Origin: Spongilla lacustris
Lineage: Eukaryota; Porifera; Demospongiae; Spongillida; Spongillidae
Direction: 5' to 3'
NCBI GenBank assembly: GCA_949361645.1
Contig: OX442417.1
Location: 17,669,503-17,733,502, forward strand
Length of the DNA: 64,000 bases
A program made the translations under genes and the position numbers. Position 1 is the stretch's first letter; every line of letters starts with the position of its first letter. The notes under the pieces are model-generated. The model made no database searches, was not told the origin of the DNA, and saw only the letters and a program-made list of their open reading frames with translations. Positions 23,168-31,549 of this stretch are shown piece after piece.

Positions 23168-23925
23168 ATTGGCTGTGTCCTTAGAAGCTATGTGTGTATT
23201 GTTAGCCTTAGAAGCTATGTGTCAGCCTTGATGGCTATGTGTCAGCCTTGATGCCATGTGTCAGCCTTGATGGCTATGTGTCAGCCTTGATGGCTATGTG
23301 TCAGCCTTGATGGCTATGTGTCAGCCTTGATGGCTATGTGTCAGCCTTGATGGCTATGTGTCAGCCTTGATGGCTATGTGTCAGCCTTGATGGCTATGTG
23401 TCAGCCTTGATGGCTATGTGTCAGCCTTGATGGCTATGTGTCAGCCTTGATGGCTATGTGTCAGCCTTGATGGCTATGTGTCAGCCTTGATGGCTATGTG
23501 TCAGCCTTGATGGCTATGTGTCAGCCTTGATGGCTATGTGTCAGCCTTGATGGCTATGTGTCAGCCTTGATGGCTATGTGTCAGCCTTGATGGCTATGTG
23601 TCAGCCTTGATGGCTTAGTGTCAGCCTTGATGGTTATGTTGTCAGCCTTGATGGCTATGTGTCAGCCTTGATGGCTATGTGTCAGCCTTGATGGCTATGT
23701 GTCAGCCTTGATGGCTATGTGTCAGCCTTGATGGTGGCTATGTGTCAGCCTTGATGGCTATGTGTCATCCTTGATGGCTATCTGTCAGCCTTGATGGTTA
23801 TGTGTGTATTATGGTCAGCCTTAGTGGCTATGTGTGTATTATGGTCAGCCTTAGTGGCTATGGTCAGCCTTAGTGGCTATGTGTGTATTATGGTCAGCCT
23901 TAGTGGCTATGTGTGTATTATGGTC
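23168..23925. repeat. 20-bp minisatellite, about 35 copies
   Basis: Unit TCAGCCTTGATGGCTATGTG, almost perfect between 23260 and 23640 and more divergent (AGCCTTAGTGGCTATGTG) at both ends. Degenerate copies continue into the start of the recombinase region (to about 24190). Confidence 0.97.
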
Positions 23926-24246
23926 AGGCTTAGTATTCCCAGCCTATAATCAGCGGCTATGTGTGCAATTATCAGCCATAGTGGCTAATTGGGCAGCTAG
24001 GTGCAGTTTCAGCCTTGCGTGCAACGGTGCTGCGTGTGTATTTTCAGTAGTGGTTATATGTATGTAATTGTCAGCCTTAGCGGCTGGTGATTCCCTGCCT
24101 CGGTGGCTAGGGACATGTTGCAGTTTCCGATCCTCGGTGGAAAGGTTACTGGTGTGTATGGTCAGGCCTCGGTGGCTGTGACATACCAGTGTTTGAGTTG
24201 ATTTAGCATACTGGCATGACTTACTGTAGTCTTTTCTCTTCTGCAG

Positions 24247-25229
24247 ACATATTCTCCTCAGGCATGTGGCCATTGCTCAGCAATCTAAAAGACCCTGAGT
24301 TACGGAGGCTTGCCCAGGCACTACCTGCGACAGTGCTAAAGAGTAGGGCAGACAGCACTTCGAAGAAGTATCTTGGTGCATATCGGAGATGGAAGGTCTG
24401 GGCTGATGAACGACAAGGGGTGCCAAGTTTTCCTGTAAAGGAAGTCCATCTAGTGCTGTACATGCAGCACCTCAGTGAGTCCACAGGGTCTAAGGCAGCA
24501 GTAGAGGAGGCAGTGCATGCTCTTTCACGGTTGCATGGGCTGGCAGGGCTGCAGCCATTGGGGGGATTACCATTAGTGCAAACCACCTTGGAAGGTTTAA
24601 AGCGCACATTGGCTAGACCAAAAGTCCGCAAGGAACTTATCACGGCCGATATGCTGAAGGCCATGGTGGAGGCAGCTGGGCCAGACTGAGATTAGGTTGT
24701 TGGCAGTGTGTCTGTTAGCCTTTGCTGGGTTCATGCGCTGTGACGAGTTAGTTAAATTGAAGTGTGATGACATCACCTTCAACAGTGAGAGCATGGTGGT
24801 TAGGGTACAATCTAGTAAGACCGATCAATATCGGGATGGAGCATCCCTAGTCATTGCACGTACAGGTTTGCCAACCTGCCCGGTAGCCATGATGGAAAGA
24901 TATTTCCATAGGGGGGAATTGGAAAGCCCACACAAAGATTTTGTGTTTCGTGGAGTAACTCCAACAAAAGCTGGAGAGCGATTGAGGAAGACTGGAGGGC
25001 TAGGTTGAGAGAACTGCTGCTAAGCAAAATCTCACAGTTAGGTTATGACCCCACTTTGTTTAGCATGCACAGCCTTCGGGCAGGCGGGGCCACTGCAGCA
25101 GCTAATGCAGGTGTAGAGGACAGGCTATTCAAGCGTCATGGTCGTTGGAAGTCCGAAACAGCCAAAGATGGTTATGTAAAAGACTCAGTGGAAAGGCGTC
25201 TGGAGGTTTCTAAGCAATTGGGCATTTAA
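24247..25229 (+). pseudogene. Tyrosine recombinase of a eukaryotic mobile element, two frameshifts
   Basis: An XerD/phage-integrase-like recombinase, which cuts and rejoins DNA through a tyrosine. The N-terminal SAM-like DNA-binding part is at about 24290-24640. The catalytic part keeps all hallmark residues: Arg in GFMRCDELVKL, Lys in SSKTDQYRDG, H-x2-R in MHSLRAGG, His in RHGRWKS and Tyr in KDGYVKDS. The frame shifts near 24687 and shifts back near 25000, so no full protein can be made. A pyrimidine tract and CAG at 24231-24246 look like a splice acceptor, hence the chosen start. The family fits DIRS/Ngaro- or Crypton-type elements; no reverse transcriptase was found beside it. Confidence 0.82.
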
Positions 25230-25253
25230 GCATCACCCCGTTCTTTGTGTCTC

Positions 25254-25364
25254 TAAGTGGTTGTGTGTGTTTGGTGGCAGCGTGCACAATGAAGCTAAAC
25301 CAATATTCTATTTTGGTTATTTGGGGGGAAGGCAGGTGCTATACAGTGGGCATGTGGGAGGGAG
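25254..25364. repeat. Direct repeat, copy 1 (recombinase element terminus)
   Basis: 111 bp starting TAAGTGGTTGTGTGTG, nearly identical to 25925-26036 in the same orientation. It lies 24 bp after the recombinase stop codon. Confidence 0.9.
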
Positions 25365-25466
25365 ATATACATTTCTGACGTTTGAACACGTGAATTAGGC
25401 AGAAATTTAGCTCCCTCCCAAATGTGATTGGTTGTATAGCACGTGATTGGGCCACGTGGTTGGGGG

Positions 25467-25474
25467 TTTAAAAG
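25467..25474 (+). promoter_or_regulatory. TATA-like box between the direct repeats
   Basis: TTTAAAAG about 30 bp upstream of a TTCATTC initiator-like site, inside the unit between the two direct repeats. It could drive an element transcript; prediction only. Confidence 0.25.
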
Positions 25475-25795
25475 GCTGGTACCTTAGTATGAGTGTTCAT
25501 TCTAAGCTTGTGTGCACGTGCTGCAAACTTTTTCTTGTTGTTTGTTTTGGTTTTGTGGTGTTTTATCTGTCCTATAGGTGCAACACTTGATCAGGGAGTA
25601 GACCTTGAAGATTGGCTGGATCTTTCTATGAACTAATTGTGTGTGTACCTGTTTGCAGAGCGATTGTTGGGTTATTTTTCCTGCTTTGAGGTTTTCTCCC
25701 AAAAAATGGGTTTTTCCTCACTGTGGATTTTTTCTGTGAGGGGGTGTGGGCCCACCCCCTCTAAATCAAATCTTGTTTGTGGTCCCGCTCTAAGG

Positions 25796-25872
25796 GTTGT
25801 GTGGTGTTTTGTAATGCTGTGTGGTGTTATGTAATGCTGTGTGGTGTTATGTAATGCTGTGTGGTGTTATGT
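25796..25872. repeat. 22-bp tandem repeat, about 3.5 copies
   Basis: Unit GTGTGGTGTTATGTAATGCT, repeated within the segment between the direct repeats. Confidence 0.85.
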
Positions 25873-25924
25873 GTGTGTGGTTGGATCAAGCCTTGGTGGC
25901 TGTGATAGCGTCTTGTGGTTGTTG

Positions 25925-26036
25925 TAAGTGGTTGTGTGTGTTTGGTGGCAGCGTGCACAATGAAGCTAAACCAATATTCTATTTTGGTTATTTGGGGGGG
26001 AAGGAAGGTGCTATACAGTAGGTATGTGGGAGGGAG
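25925..26036. repeat. Direct repeat, copy 2
   Basis: Second copy of 25254-25364, 671 bp downstream. The arrangement recombinase, repeat, unique segment, repeat resembles the B1-A2-B2 split direct repeats of Ngaro/DIRS-like elements. The left A1 copy was not found. Confidence 0.9.
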
Positions 26037-26130
26037 TAAAGGAATTCCGTTGATATGCTACAATAAAGTGACCCTTCCTTGTGATTAATGGACACATTGT
26101 AGTCATGGCAACATAGCTAGCAGGATCAGC

Positions 26131-26231
26131 ATGAGTTGTAGCAACCAGTTTTTTAAGCCCACTCGACATGTATTTAGAAGGAGGGCATTACTAAATTCGA
26201 CAACGTGGCCTTTGGTGACTGAACTGGATGG
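26131..26231 (+). other. Possible short exon, unknown
   Basis: ATG at 26131 opens a frame reading MSCSNQFFKPTRHVF that reaches a donor-like GTAAGC at about 26232. It could be the 5' exon of the zinc-finger relic that follows, but no homology is recognised. Confidence 0.2.
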
Positions 26232-26409
26232 TAAGCGTACAACAGCGATGATCAGAGGCATGTGGCTATCAGACCTTAAGCTAGTGGTAACGAATTTTCT
26301 ATCACCACAGCGTACGTATTGCATGATCAATCTTTGGTGTTGCCCCTACACGTACACATTGTATACATGATTATACCCATATATACATGATGTAGAGTTT
26401 GGCTAATCA

Positions 26410-26870
26410 AGTACGAACAAGTGCAAAGCATTGTCAGCCGAGCTGAAAATAGCTTTTGGCATTGACACATCTCACCCTAAGATGTTCTGCATGCGATGTA
26501 AGTTGAGCATGAAGAGATCACCCTGTGCCATCGCAAAGGGTGTGCATCACAAATGTGCAGGTGCTATTTGAGTGGCATAAACATACACATGTACAGATCA
26601 AGAATGCAAGGTATACATTTGCTTTCTCAAGTGGACACAGCAGGAGGCCAACACTTGGTAAAGGTCTTCAGGCTGGCATCACAACTAATAGCTCATCTTG
26701 AGAACATTGCCGCTCCACCAGCTTTCCATATAGTGAGCCCAGCCCACCTTTGGCAAGCGCTATCAACCTGTCAATGTTAAAGGAGCTGAAGTGTGCATTG
26801 TGCTCCAACTCTCACATCCACTGGAACTGCAGTGTGGTGCACTGGTGTGCTCCAAATGCCAAAATTATAT
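26410..26870 (+). pseudogene. RAG1 N-terminal-like (N-RAG) zinc-binding relic
   Basis: Three blocks occur in the order found in the non-core N-terminus of RAG1 and N-RAG-like invertebrate proteins. First, ALSAELKIAFGIDTSHP with HPKMFCMRC (about 26422-26499). Second, FEWHKHT (26567-26587). Third, a RING start, LKCALCSN (26789-26809), then in another frame [13 protein letters not shown] (26821-26859). At least two frameshifts and a TGA at about 26567 break it. In RAG1 this region is a zinc-binding E3-ligase-type module; here it is non-functional. N-RAG-like domains are known from animal transposons outside vertebrates. The block order and spacing are the evidence; no catalytic core of RAG1 is visible nearby. 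Confidence 0.55.
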
Positions 26871-26885
26871 GTCTTATGTGCACAG

Positions 26886-27593
26886 GTGGTTGCTAGGGGA
26901 GACCCATACCTGGCTGCCACGGTACAGGCAGTCATGCACCAGCTGGAGTACTCCAATCCCTACAGGCTGGTCTGGTAGTCCAAGGTAGGCCACATCTGGG
27001 CTCCTCCCACCATACAGGCACCTCCCCCTCCCTGTGCAAGGTTGGACCCCTCCCCTGGCTCAGTCCCCAGACCGATGAGGTGATAAAGGGCTTTGCAAAG
27101 CTTGGACGTAAGAACCTCCTCCTAGTCCCCATCGCCTTCACCTTCGATCACATTGAGACACTTCATGAGTTGGACGTGGAGTATGCAGGAGTGGTGGCCA
27201 AGGAGGTAAGGGGTGTGGTCTAGGAGGTAATGGGTGTGGCTCTGGATAAGGGGTGTGGCTCTCTACACAGTGTGGTATCACCAGCATCAGACGAGCAGCC
27301 TCACTCAATGATAGCCCTGTGTTCCTCCAGGTGAGTGGGATGGTTCCCAGACCTTACTAGCATAGTTGTTCAGTGCTTTTGAAATATTGTTGAAAACCTT
27401 CCCCTCCACCCACACATCCTCACCTCAGGCACTAGCTGAAGTGGTCTATGAACACCTGCAAGCAGGGTAGCCACACACCTTGAGGTGTCCCATGTGCACC
27501 AATGCAGTATGTGGTGAGATGAGGAAGTACTTTTGTGGCCACACCCCCAGGAACAGGTTACATGATCAGATGGTTAAGAGGGAGGGGCTATGA
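26886..27593 (+). pseudogene. FECH: Ferrochelatase 3' exons, 5'-truncated with two in-frame TAG codons
   Basis: Ferrochelatase inserts iron into protoporphyrin IX, the last step of heme synthesis, in mitochondria. Four exons with GT/AG introns are readable: 26886-26984 (VVARGDPY and SNPYRLVW), 27041-27205 ([23 protein letters not shown]), 27271-27330 (SIRRAASLN) and 27429-27593 (RCPMCTNAVC). All exon joins keep phase 0. The C-x2-C-x4-C of the last exon matches three of the four [2Fe-2S] cluster ligands of animal enzymes. TAG at 26976-26978 replaces a normally conserved glutamine; a second TAG is at 27468-27470. The first half of the enzyme, including the SAHSLP-type catalytic histidine region, is absent; an unrelated zinc-finger relic ends 16 bp upstream. 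Confidence 0.88.
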
Positions 27594-27739
27594 CCTCCTG
27601 GCTACATGATCAGATGGTTACATGGGCTGCAGTTTCATTTTCACTATTCATGTACACAACAACAGCAAGATTTACTTAATCTGAGCCATGCGGACTGATT
27701 AGGATTTCTGCAGGTGTAGCTTATTTCAGGGGTTGTGGC

Positions 27740-28178
27740 TTGGAGGTGATAGCCCCTCCCTCTTAACCATCTGATCATGTGACCTGGAGGTCATAGCCCC
27801 TCCCTCTTAACCATCTGATCATGTGACCTGGAGGTCATAGTCCCTCCCTCTTAACCATCTGATCATGTGACCTGGAGATCATAACCCCTCCCTCTTAACC
27901 ACCTGATCATGTCACCTGGAGGTCATAGCCCCTCTCTCTTAACCATCTGATCATGTGACCTGGATGTCATAGCCCCTCCCTCTTAACCATCTGATCATAT
28001 AACCTGGAGGTCATAGCTCCTCCCTCTTAACCATCTGATCACGTGACCTAGAGGTCATAGCCCCTCCCTCTTAACCATCTGATCACGTGACCTGGATGTC
28101 ATAGCCCCTCCCTCTTAACCATCTGATCATATAACCTGGAGGTCATAGCCCCTCCCTCTTAACCATTTGATCATGTAA
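27740..28178. repeat. 44-bp minisatellite, about 10 copies
   Basis: Unit contains GGTCATAGCCCCTCCCTCTT then AACCATCTGATCATGTGACC. Two reverse-orientation part copies lie at about 27560-27622, overlapping the end of the ferrochelatase pseudogene. Confidence 0.95.
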
Positions 28179-28243
28179 TGGTGTGCAACTGTTAAAAGGT
28201 GCGATAGGGGCAACCAGCATTTGTCAGGCAAGTTTCATCAGTT

Positions 28244-28263
28244 AACAGGATGGCCATCCTGTT
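28244..28263. repeat. Perfect 20-bp palindrome
   Basis: AACAGGATGGCCATCCTGTT, followed 1 bp later by CTATATATAG. Its role is unknown. Confidence 0.7.
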
Positions 28264-28390
28264 CTATATATAGAACCGTTCGCATACCAACTGCACTAGC
28301 ATCATATCTGTTTTAAGGACACATGCATGCTCCAAGTTTGGGGTAAGCAAGTGCAGGGTCCTGAAATTAGCATGTGAGTGTCCACTAGTG

Positions 28391-28745
28391 TAGGCCAAGC
28401 GATTTAGGCCTATGTAGGTAGCTGTGGTGGTGTGCCAAAGGCATCTGGTGTATGTGTGAGATGTTGGTAGCTGTGGGGGTGTCTGGTGTGATTAGGGTAG
28501 CTGTGGTTGTGTGGGAGGGTGTCAGTTGTGATTTGGTTAGTTTGCACATGTAAGTTTCGAGTGACAGCTAACTCGGTGAGCCGAGAAAACCTGAATAACC
28601 TATGTTATTCAGCAGGCAAACTGTCAAAACCTATTCGGAAGAATCAGTTTTATTTTTTTCTTTGACAGATCCAGAAAAACCTGAAAAATTGAAAAGTATT
28701 TGAAAAAAATCGATTTACATTATTCAGGGGAGGCTATACACCCTA
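28391..28745. mobile_element. 3' part of a hAT-type element
   Basis: Diverged copy of 17433-17864: the GTAGCTGTGG repeats, the CCTGAATAACC and ATTCGGAA motifs, and the end ATACACCCTA. The 5' part is missing. Confidence 0.8.
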
Positions 28746-28909
28746 ACCCCATGAGTGTACATGTAGTATGTATGGTTACGTGTCAATCATGTGACTTGCA
28801 CCTCAAACTGTTACTACAAGAGTTTCTCCCCCATACCAAATGTCCACATCTATAGTGAGGAATGTCAACAGTTTATGTAGCATTAATTTGCAGAATACAC
28901 AAGTAAATA

Positions 28910-29030
28910 AAAACTAAAGTTGGTGGTATATAGGATTTGAAGGCGATAGTGGTGTAAAAAGCAGGGAAACAAGGGTTGAATGATAAGGAAAAACGAAATA
29001 GTCCTATATTTAGCCCAGCACACATTGTAC
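28910..29030. mobile_element. Half copy of a MITE related to 32610-32852
   Basis: Shares GTTGGTGGTATATAGGATTT and the following GAAGGC segment with the MITE arms at 32.6 and 32.8 kb. Confidence 0.6.
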
Positions 29031-29083
29031 GACAATATATTATGCATGCCTGTAGAACTTTTTCATTTTTCACTAGCATAATG

Positions 29084-29830
29084 AGGCTATGATCCACTTC
29101 CTGAGATGTTACAGGCATGATGAGGCTATGGTCCACCTCCTGAGATATTACAGGCATGATGAGGCTATGGTCCACCTCCTGAGACATTACAGGCATGATG
29201 GGGCTATGGTCCACCTCCTGAGACATTACAGGCATGATGGGGCTATGGTCCACCTCCTGAGACGTTACAGGCATGATGAGGCTGTGGTCCACCTCCTGAG
29301 ATGTTACAGGCATGATGAGGCTATGGTCCACCTCCTGAGATATTACAGGCAAGATGAGACTATGGTCCACCTCCTGAGACATTACAGGCATGATGGGGCT
29401 ATGGTCCACCTCCTGAGACGTTACAGGCATGATGAGGCTGTGGTCCACCTCCTGAGATGTTACAGGCATGATGAGGCTATGGTCCACCTCCTGAGATATT
29501 ACGGGCATGATGAGGCTATGGTCCACCTCCTGAGACGTTACAGGCATGATGTGGCTATGGTCCACCTCCTGAGACGTTACAGGCATGATGAGGCTGTGGT
29601 CCACCTCCTAAGACGTTACAGGCATGATGAGGCTATGGTCCACCTCCTGACACGTTACAGGCATGATGATGCTATGGTTCACCTCCTGACACGTTACAGG
29701 CATGATGATGCTATGGTTCACCTCCTGAGACGTTACAAGCTGTGGTCCAACTTCTCGATCATGATGAGAATGAGGCAAGCATGCTTAGGCTGTGGTCCAC
29801 CTCCTGAGATATTACAAGCCTTAGCATGAT
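29084..29830. repeat. 39-bp minisatellite, about 19 copies
   Basis: Unit includes GAGGCTATGGTCCACCTCCT then GAGACGTTACAGGCATGAT. As 39 is a multiple of three, frames stay open on both strands; these are not real proteins. Confidence 0.95.
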
Positions 29831-31549
29831 GAATCGTTGGTCCACCTGCTTGGAATTAGTGCATCAACAAGCAAAAGCTATGTAGATTGGCCGCCAAATC
29901 TCCAAAGAGGGCTGTGGCATGTATTTGTATGAGTTCAATGTCTTTGATAACCAATGAGTTAAGGAGGAAGGAGGAGTGTGGTACATAAACTAATTGTGTG
30001 GTTCGAAGAAAGTAGTACAACTCTTTAAATTCCAGCAACACTACATAAACTGTTATTGGTGCATCCCACAGGTCATATGCTAGGTGTGCTCATTTTTGGT
30101 GGGTAACACAACTGGTAATAAGCATTTCACAGTTTGTGAAGCAAATCATACAGCAATTTGATACATTGTGCAGGGTACCACTACCTTTTGTATTATTATT
30201 CACACCAGGTACCCTAAGCTTTAAATGAAATGGATGTATAATTTCCATAATTCCTTGTCTCAATTGAAATCCTACATCTCTAATTTTATCTTGTTTCACG
30301 ATCTAACCCAATTGTGTCTACAAGAGGCCATGTATGATGGGACCAGAGACCGGAACGCCAAATAGAGCTGGTCCGAGTACGGTTCGATCTCCTAAAGTGT
30401 ATAACTTGTAATAATTTAATATGATTTTAACATCATAATAGCGGTCACTGAGCTTGAGCGTCTCGTTGTTCGCGGTATGCCCAAAATATCATCGTAAGAA
30501 GTAAGCTGTATAGTACTCATTTTGTTGTCTCCTGATTTTTTCATGGCTCTAATATTTCCCGTAGCTCTTTGTACAAACTTTCTATTGGTCTCTTTCACCG
30601 TCTCTGTGCATAGCAGTAGCTTTCAAAATCGACGCGTAAACCATCGTTCTTATACTGTGTCACGTGAACCATCAGTGTGAACGGGTTCCCGAAGCGTTCC
30701 GTGGAATGGTTCTAGCGCGGGGTGTTAGTAATATGTAGTAAAAACTGTTGTCACATATTCTGTTAACATATGTACATGTATCATTTATGTTACATACAAT
30801 AATTGTAGTACAATGCATCTGGAGTTATGCACTTATCAATGCCATCCGGTACTCCCCCCCCCCCCATTGCATTATAAAAAGAAAGGTTCTGTTCATTATA
30901 TTCTGAGCAGTTGCGCATTAGTTGGTGGATAAGATTTGTTTTGTTGTCGGTGGAAATTGTGAGGTGAGCATTTACGGACTGTTTCATATAAGCTAATTTG
31001 TGTATGTAACTAAGCGTTGAAATGGTACAGGCCTTAGGACAGCAGTTTTCTTTTATGTAACACGTAGTGGTGTTGTGTTGTATAGGACTGAGGTCTTGCA
31101 GCTAGGCCAGCTACTCAAAGGCAAGGTGTGTGGGAGGGCAGAAGTTGTAGAGAATTAAGCCAATAGAACTACTCTTTCTTTTCCACCTAGTGGTTATTTA
31201 GGTGGGGTGAACCTACCCCCATAGTGCTCATACTATAAGGTTAATAATTATAAAGTGCGTGCGAATGAGCTGCAATCGTGTAAACGTCGGGCAATGTTTT
31301 GTTTTGCAACGTATGATTATGTCCGGACACGCAAACCGCCTTTTCTTATTTGCTGAATGCCAGTCATCTGGTCCCCAGACTAGTTTAAACCCGAAACCCG
31401 TCTCTAAACAAAACTGGCCGACGTGTTTTGCACAAAACCCACAAGTGTAGTGTTTGCTCGTGACCTGCAGGGCCACCGTACAATATGGCCTAGTGCTAGT
31501 GTAATGCTTTGTTGTCGTTGAGCCATATAAACTACAATAGCGTCGTCCC

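Follow-up and report, generated by a model that had tools for sequence, protein, structure and literature searches.

Where the N-terminal part of RAG1 came from and how the 12/23 rule arose are open questions, and both are raised by a locus in the genome of the sponge Spongilla lacustris (assembly GCA_949361645.1). In a stretch of 64,000 nucleotides of contig OX442417.1 (positions 17,669,503 to 17,733,502, forward strand; hereafter the window, to which positions refer unless another contig or element is named), the original prediction, made from the letters alone, placed a relic resembling the non-core N-terminus of RAG1. We conclude, with a probability of roughly 0.9, that positions 26148-26860 are a dead piece of a cut-and-paste DNA transposon of Chapaev type that has a RAG1-like transposase, ends differing by one helical turn and a proposed RAG1-like mode of action. 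The fragment is a genuine relic of an already known type of element, and the one-turn end asymmetry is apparently new. A high-copy family with near-identical copies, a RAG1-like N-terminus and a one-turn end difference, in an early-branching animal, offers a testable system for both questions.

The fragment in the window

All three motifs that had been predicted in the order of the RAG1 N-terminus are present on the + strand, at 26473-26499, 26570-26587 and 26792-26859. The first, HPKMFCMRC, lies in the first coding piece (26407-26568), a RAG1-like zinc domain named Chapa that is homologous to the open exons of alignment A1; the second, EWHKHT, is translated from another frame and aligns with EWHPHT of RAG1. 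The third belongs to the remains of a RING exon (26702-26893), with CALC (26792-26803) and CGALVCSKC (26833-26859) in two different frames; a weak, sub-threshold Pfam match to RING (E 0.024) covers 26737-26898. Frameshifts and stops interrupt the series, the order of which is kept.

The fragment aligns to positions 231-1100 of a 4442-bp element from the same genome, L023 (E 4.6e-118; 69.7% identity over 870 columns, 157 of them gap positions). This homology starts somewhat 5' of the limit first proposed and ends at 26860, at the start of the RING; the fragment contains neither transposon end, the 5' terminal repeat included, and lacks the remaining part of the RING together with the second zinc finger and the catalytic core. 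A genome search with a 491-bp stretch of the fragment gave at least 66 matches (a lower bound, with 40 of the 255 candidates scored). One, about 54 kb away and in inverted orientation, is 100% identical; with the query itself and this copy set aside, the best further match is 78% identical (E 9.9e-104), and others show 70-89% identity. The connection of the fragment to RAG1 is made through better-kept copies, for which RAG1 is the best PDB match (E 6.8e-4) and the RAG1_imp_bd family (PF12560) scores 22.7 bits, narrowly below the cut-off of 23.3. The homology to the non-core RAG1 N-terminus is borne out by these copies together with the profile of their relatives described below.

A transposase with a RAG1-like layout

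Translation and profile comparison show a predicted protein of about 900 aa whose N-terminal part is the RAG1-type zinc domain Chapa; next come a RING and a second zinc finger, and then a DDE core that carries a C(2)C/H(4)H pair. The N-RAG-like character originally proposed for the sequence holds for its RAG1-like N-terminus; rather than an isolated source of N-RAG, the locus contains a piece of a Chapaev-type transposase gene with the whole RAG1-like layout. A 945-aa exon model of the copy at 9.02 Mb of contig C4 matches DUF1280, which we take to be a marker of Chapaev-type cores, at E 1.2e-11, RAG1_imp_bd at E 3.3e-4 (20.8 bits, cut-off 23.3) and, under the cut-off, RING at E 3.1e-3; RAG1_imp_bd scores above its cut-off in three of the five relatives scanned. 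The relatives come mainly from the freshwater sponge Ephydatia muelleri, as expected for the sponge-type genome that had been proposed: 45 of the 48 homologs of this model at E<=1e-3, and 74 of 77 in a further search, carry Em or EMCRGX names, whereas 55 of 61 in a third search bear no species name.

When a profile of 21 relatives is compared with PDB sequences, full-length mouse RAG1 comes out on top (E 7.2e-17; RAG1 residues 102-419 on profile positions 3-257), the best non-RAG RING scoring 1.3e-6. This match takes in the zinc motifs of the N-terminus, the RING and the zinc finger after it, and extends to the ggrprqH line of RAG1. The Chapa domain alone (alignment A1, 10 sequences) matches RAG1 21wb at 1e-6, ahead of zif268-type fingers (5.7e-4). 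Many sponge proteins contain TGGTP downstream of the second zinc finger, and P0106 and the starfish protein P0130 have TGGRP; this site may correspond in place to the nonamer-binding motif GGRPRQH of RAG1. P0130 (Asterias amurensis, 989 aa) is 28% identical to P0062 over the whole length, so that the layout is not limited to sponges.

The catalytic motifs of P0070 are D345, D415, C434/C437, H742/H747 and E764, and the same motifs occur in P0130 and P0097. Across 59 gene models, many of them incomplete, the first D is found in 41, the second D in 33, C(2)C in 19, H(4)H in 35 and E in 32. The predicted fold of an Ephydatia relative is like that of RAG1/Transib; aligned to RAG1, its core is about 15% identical. 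A first structure prediction (P0062, 21 sequences), with a predicted local distance difference test score of 52, was not used. The RAG1 core family PF12940 had no matches in the genome, or in control genomes, and a scan of viral contigs with P0097 yielded no confirmed relative. Four Ephydatia gene models (P0096, P0101, P0103 and P0104) join Chapaev pieces to other domains, namely PF00530, PF07714/PF00069 and PF00443, which are scavenger-receptor, kinase and ubiquitin protease domains, respectively; these joins are probably annotation fusions and possibly exaptations.

The transposon family in the genome

Looking for intact copies elsewhere in the genome, the check suggested with the original prediction, recovered longer copies that retain open exons as well as transposon ends. 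Among 20 regions of the family examined for ends and target duplications, both ends (CACGGTTGTATGC... and ...GCAGACCACCGTG, with CACGG...CCGTG termini) were recovered in 14, and all 14, which belong to subfamily 1, have a 4-bp target site duplication (TSD). Four bp is the TSD length of Chapaev elements. With a stricter end pattern, the TSD is 4 bp in 13 of 13 subfamily-1 copies and 5 bp in none of the 13. In this sample, L016 and L020 have common flanks and L010, L011 and L013 sit in simple repeats; subfamilies a-e (see below), which were selected by their TSD, are left out of the count.

Copies of about 3 kb have broken frames and have lost most of the core, retaining Chapa and RING pieces; one of them, the L009 element (about 2985 bp), is 99.1-99.6% identical to the L010, L013 and L015 elements and 96.8-96.9% identical to those of L011 and L018. 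The same ends flank the 4442-bp L023, the exons of which encode the Chapa domain, then the RING along with the second zinc finger, and the core of the transposase as far as GFGLMGEQGAESIHARF, so that the 3-kb copies look like internal-deletion derivatives. The three protein pieces that we searched for are open in L023 (contig C22) and in a copy on C10, and in the copy at 13.0 Mb of C4 the 146-aa piece is split across two frames. Inspected by eye, the open reading frames (ORFs) of the 4.4-kb L023 element amount to one transposase gene. Diverged relatives in the genome account for at least 152, 150 and 135 matches to the three pieces, these counts being lower bounds with at most 150 candidates scored in each search. 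The RING part of the 3-kb copies also contains a minisatellite (L009 4430-5151).

Chapaev or a closer relative of RAG

We apply the Chapaev label on the strength of motifs, termini, TSD length and the order of the domains. The DDE core carries C(2)C and H(4)H between the second D and E, the termini are 5'-CA...TG-3', and Chapa is followed by a RING, both identified through similarity to RAG1. Several observations weigh against this assignment. RAG1 is the best match of both the profile and the predicted fold, and the CAC ends resemble the heptamers of Transib and of recombination signal sequences (RSS), as would be the case if the relic came from a RAG1-like/RAG2-like (RAGL, ProtoRAG-type) or a Transib transposon. 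Subfamily 2 includes a copy with a 5-bp TSD and another without any. We nevertheless regard a RAGL or Transib origin as improbable, given the low core identity to RAG1, the 4-bp rather than 5-bp TSDs throughout subfamily 1, the matches to DUF1280 and the single transposase gene of the 4.4-kb element; the silence of PF12940 is a weak argument in the same direction, the control being silent too.

The 3-kb copies, with Chapa and RING pieces and little core, might also be seen as a free-standing N-RAG transposon like Aplysia N-RAG-TP, consisting of the N-terminal part only and unrelated to a DDE transposase; this is highly improbable and is already contradicted by L023, in which the same ends surround core exons. 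Also on the opposing side, the 54-aa window piece alone has no PDB match at E<=10 and no RAG1 match in Pfam, being too short and decayed, and P0130 taken alone matches generic RINGs (8.2e-6) ahead of RAG1 (0.012). A better match to an unrelated RING or zinc finger, named at the outset as grounds for abandoning the RAG1 connection, is thus seen for this single starfish relative and not for the 21-relative profile, which prefers RAG1. Chance similarity of the motifs, or an unrelated RING gene, has a negligible probability: a chance origin is refuted by the DNA homology of the 491-bp stretch to the transposon family (E 1e-103). The Chapaev-type transposon remains the reading adopted below.

An 11-bp asymmetry between the ends

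Read inward, the ends of subfamily 1 are CACGGTTGTATGCGGC-TGGAAACTAAG (5') and CACGGTGGTCTGCTCTCATTGAACGCG-TGGAAACTAAG (3'), such that the block common to both begins at base 17 in the former and at base 28 in the latter; the spacing in subfamily 2 (copies on C4 and C14) is equal. In all seven subfamilies (1, 2 and a-e), a second block common to both ends is found 11 bp further inside the element on the 3' side. Subfamilies a-e are 36-43% (Chapa), 35-47% (146-aa piece) and 48-62% (C-terminal piece) identical to L023, and their inner blocks are unlike that of subfamily 1; their best end candidates match between ends at 10-12 of 14 bases, and the next-best at 5-7 of 14, with none for a. The best 10-base match between the ends occurs at offset 11 in eight of eight rows covering the seven subfamilies (tied with offset 1 in b), and in shuffles offset 11 was best in 59-72 of 2000. 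The inner-block score stands out for subfamily 1, where 0 and 1 of 2000 shuffles reached it, and for a (0). Counted from the 7-bp CACGGNT to GGAAA or GGACA, the spacers are about 10 and 21; the same bipartite blocks occur at both ends with spacers that differ by one helical turn, the arrangement of 12/23-type signals. A CATTGAA motif is seen inside the longer spacer at the 3' ends of subfamilies 1, 2, a, b and d.

Genome-wide, the pattern CACGGNNGTNTGC-N{0,24}-TGGAAANTA has 576 matches and its reversed control none. The spacer is 3 in 318 matches and 4-13 in five, the remaining 251 having 14 or 0-2; the same block pair at spacers of 15-30 gives three matches; two of these enclose a nested end, and two are within the 0-24 range. 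A second pattern, CACGGNTGTTNC-N{0,25}-SGACANT, has 824 matches, 8 of which are to be expected from the reversed control, and comes nearest to a prospective test because its design drew on a, b and d and the count came afterwards. The following figures refer to the first 100 matches of each pattern, located on contigs C1-C2 and C1, respectively. Spacers of the first pattern are 3 in 58 cases and 14 in 42, and facing neighbours within 7 kb combine a short with a long spacing in 34 of 34 cases. For the second, the total length is 24 in 46, 35 in 42, 34 in eight and 36 in one, with three intermediate values (27, 27 and 28); 26 of the 28 facing pairs are 24+35, one is 24+36 and one is 24+28. The spacings are thus bimodal for both patterns; among the places listed, 60 of 62 facing pairs are exactly short plus long, and none of the 62 is short plus short or long plus long. 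One of the short matches of the first pattern, at G000:C1:14005071-14005095, is a 3'-type end (TGTCTGCTC...GTGGAAATTA) that has lost 11 bp and so acquired the short spacing.

Possible function and age of the asymmetry

If the protein acts as its layout suggests, the transposase would bind both ends as a RAG1-like dimer, its core contacting the terminal CACGG block and its N-terminal DNA-binding part the inner block, and would then cut and reinsert the element; the 3-kb copies would have been moved in trans, and the RING may serve as a ubiquitin ligase. By analogy with the 12/23 rule for RAG, we infer that the 11-bp difference would enforce the pairing of one short with one long end.

Only tentatively do we suggest that sponge Chapaevs with the whole RAG1-like protein obey a working one-turn short/long rule, and that this rule and the RAG1 N-terminus are older than RAG and Transib and go back to the last ancestor shared by Chapaev, Transib and RAG, before animal diversification. 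This proposal is doubtful because common descent alone could preserve the spacing, and there is an almost even chance that the asymmetry arose by accident in a single ancestor and serves no function. The copies all share descent and many of their ends are nearly the same, the inner-block scores are mostly within reach of shuffles, and covariation between the ends is partial. The scores are marginal for e (81 of 2000 shuffles) and subfamily 2 (122) and unremarkable for b (259), c (226) and d (255); the left inner block of subfamily 2 fits the right one of subfamily 1 (8/8) better than its own (6), and the left end of b fits the right end of a (8) better than its own (7). Subfamilies a-e are represented by one copy each, with ends chosen by requiring a 4-bp TSD, and the offset window was fixed after subfamily 1 had been seen. 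In subfamily c the offset is 11 for CAATAGG and 10 for TTGG, and in L034 and L035 (99.8% identical to each other) the right end is one base shorter. Both genome-wide patterns presuppose the blocks, so that spacing is measured within these families only. Against an inherited accident, subfamilies a-e keep the 11 bp despite different spacer letters and 35-62% identity to L023 in the scored pieces, and intermediate spacings are rare (5 of 576 for the first pattern and 3 of the 100 listed for the second).

Relation to known systems

The bearing on the origin of the RAG1 N-terminus claimed in the original prediction is qualified by an answer already in print, with which the Spongilla genome is consistent. 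Kapitonov and Koonin (2015; PMC4411706) name the Chapa domain, distinguish two Chapaev subgroups, known from other animals, in which a RING 'similar to RAG1' comes after Chapa, and propose that the fusion of Chapa and RING to the core predates the split of Chapaev and Transib. The Spongilla family shares with these elements Chapa, the RING, the DDE core with C(2)C and H(4)H (the CMC signature being C(2)C and H(3-4)H between the second D and E; PMC12730594), the CA...TG ends and the 4-bp TSD (14 of 14 subfamily-1 copies), and differs from them in its sponge host and the 11-bp end difference. No sponge is among the species abbreviations of the figure legend examined in that paper, and 'sponge' and 'Amphimedon' occur 0 times in its text; given this precedent, the Spongilla finding represents a new host and new members of that Chapaev type. 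Our literature search, which did not include Repbase, found no report of end asymmetry in Chapaev or of a sponge Chapaev with a RAG1-like N-terminus.

Compared with vertebrate RAG1 and the 12/23 RSS, the core identity is about 15%, the spacers are about 10/21 with the same difference of one helical turn, and the inner block is not the RSS nonamer. The Spongilla family, unlike vertebrate RAG, is a transposon with a 4-bp TSD, and no RAG2 was seen in it, no RAG2 search having been made. In canonical Transib (HzTransib), the N-terminal domains are absent and the TSD is 5 bp long (PMC4411706). In PMC8355894, 12/23 asymmetry outside V(D)J recombination is ascribed only to some Transibs, amphioxus ends are given as 27/31, and a figure legend reports asymmetric ends for the eastern oyster. 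Invertebrate RAGL is argued to be relatively, and probably, insensitive to end asymmetry (PMC7204232), whereas amphioxus ProtoRAG prefers unlike ends (PMC8289069). Like Aplysia N-RAG-TP, as presented in PMC8355894 and PMC2996935, the 3-kb copies are mobile and contain RAG1 N-terminal-like sequence without a core, whereas the Spongilla N-terminus belongs to a full Chapaev-type transposase. By analogy, the 3-kb copies suggest that N-RAG-only elements, such as that of Aplysia, may be internal-deletion derivatives of Chapaev.

Neighbourhood of the fragment

The original prediction noted a tyrosine recombinase element nearby, represented by broken ORF pieces at 24216-25229 (+ strand); an association of the relic with it is rejected, as none of the four element copies tried aligns there. 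Within these pieces, 24697-25005 has a sub-threshold Phage_integrase match (E 1.3e-4), and the other two gave no such match.

On the other side, 38 bp from the fragment end, ferrochelatase exon remnants outside the element span 26898-27560 (+ strand). The piece at 27068-27208 matches PF00762 (E 3.7e-11), and the others, including that at 26898, are presumed ferrochelatase pieces. A TAG stands in frame after ...YRLVW, and the remnants look like a pseudogene or a partial duplicate. An inverted duplication of at least 7.9 kb (23455-31315 vs G000:C3:17637500-17645403; 98.9% identical) includes both the fragment and these remnants. Tandem arrays occupy 27734-28178 and 29076-29816, and the latter is open on both strands, with HDEAMVHLLRRYR-type repeats on the + strand and SQEVDHSLIMPVT-type repeats on the - strand.
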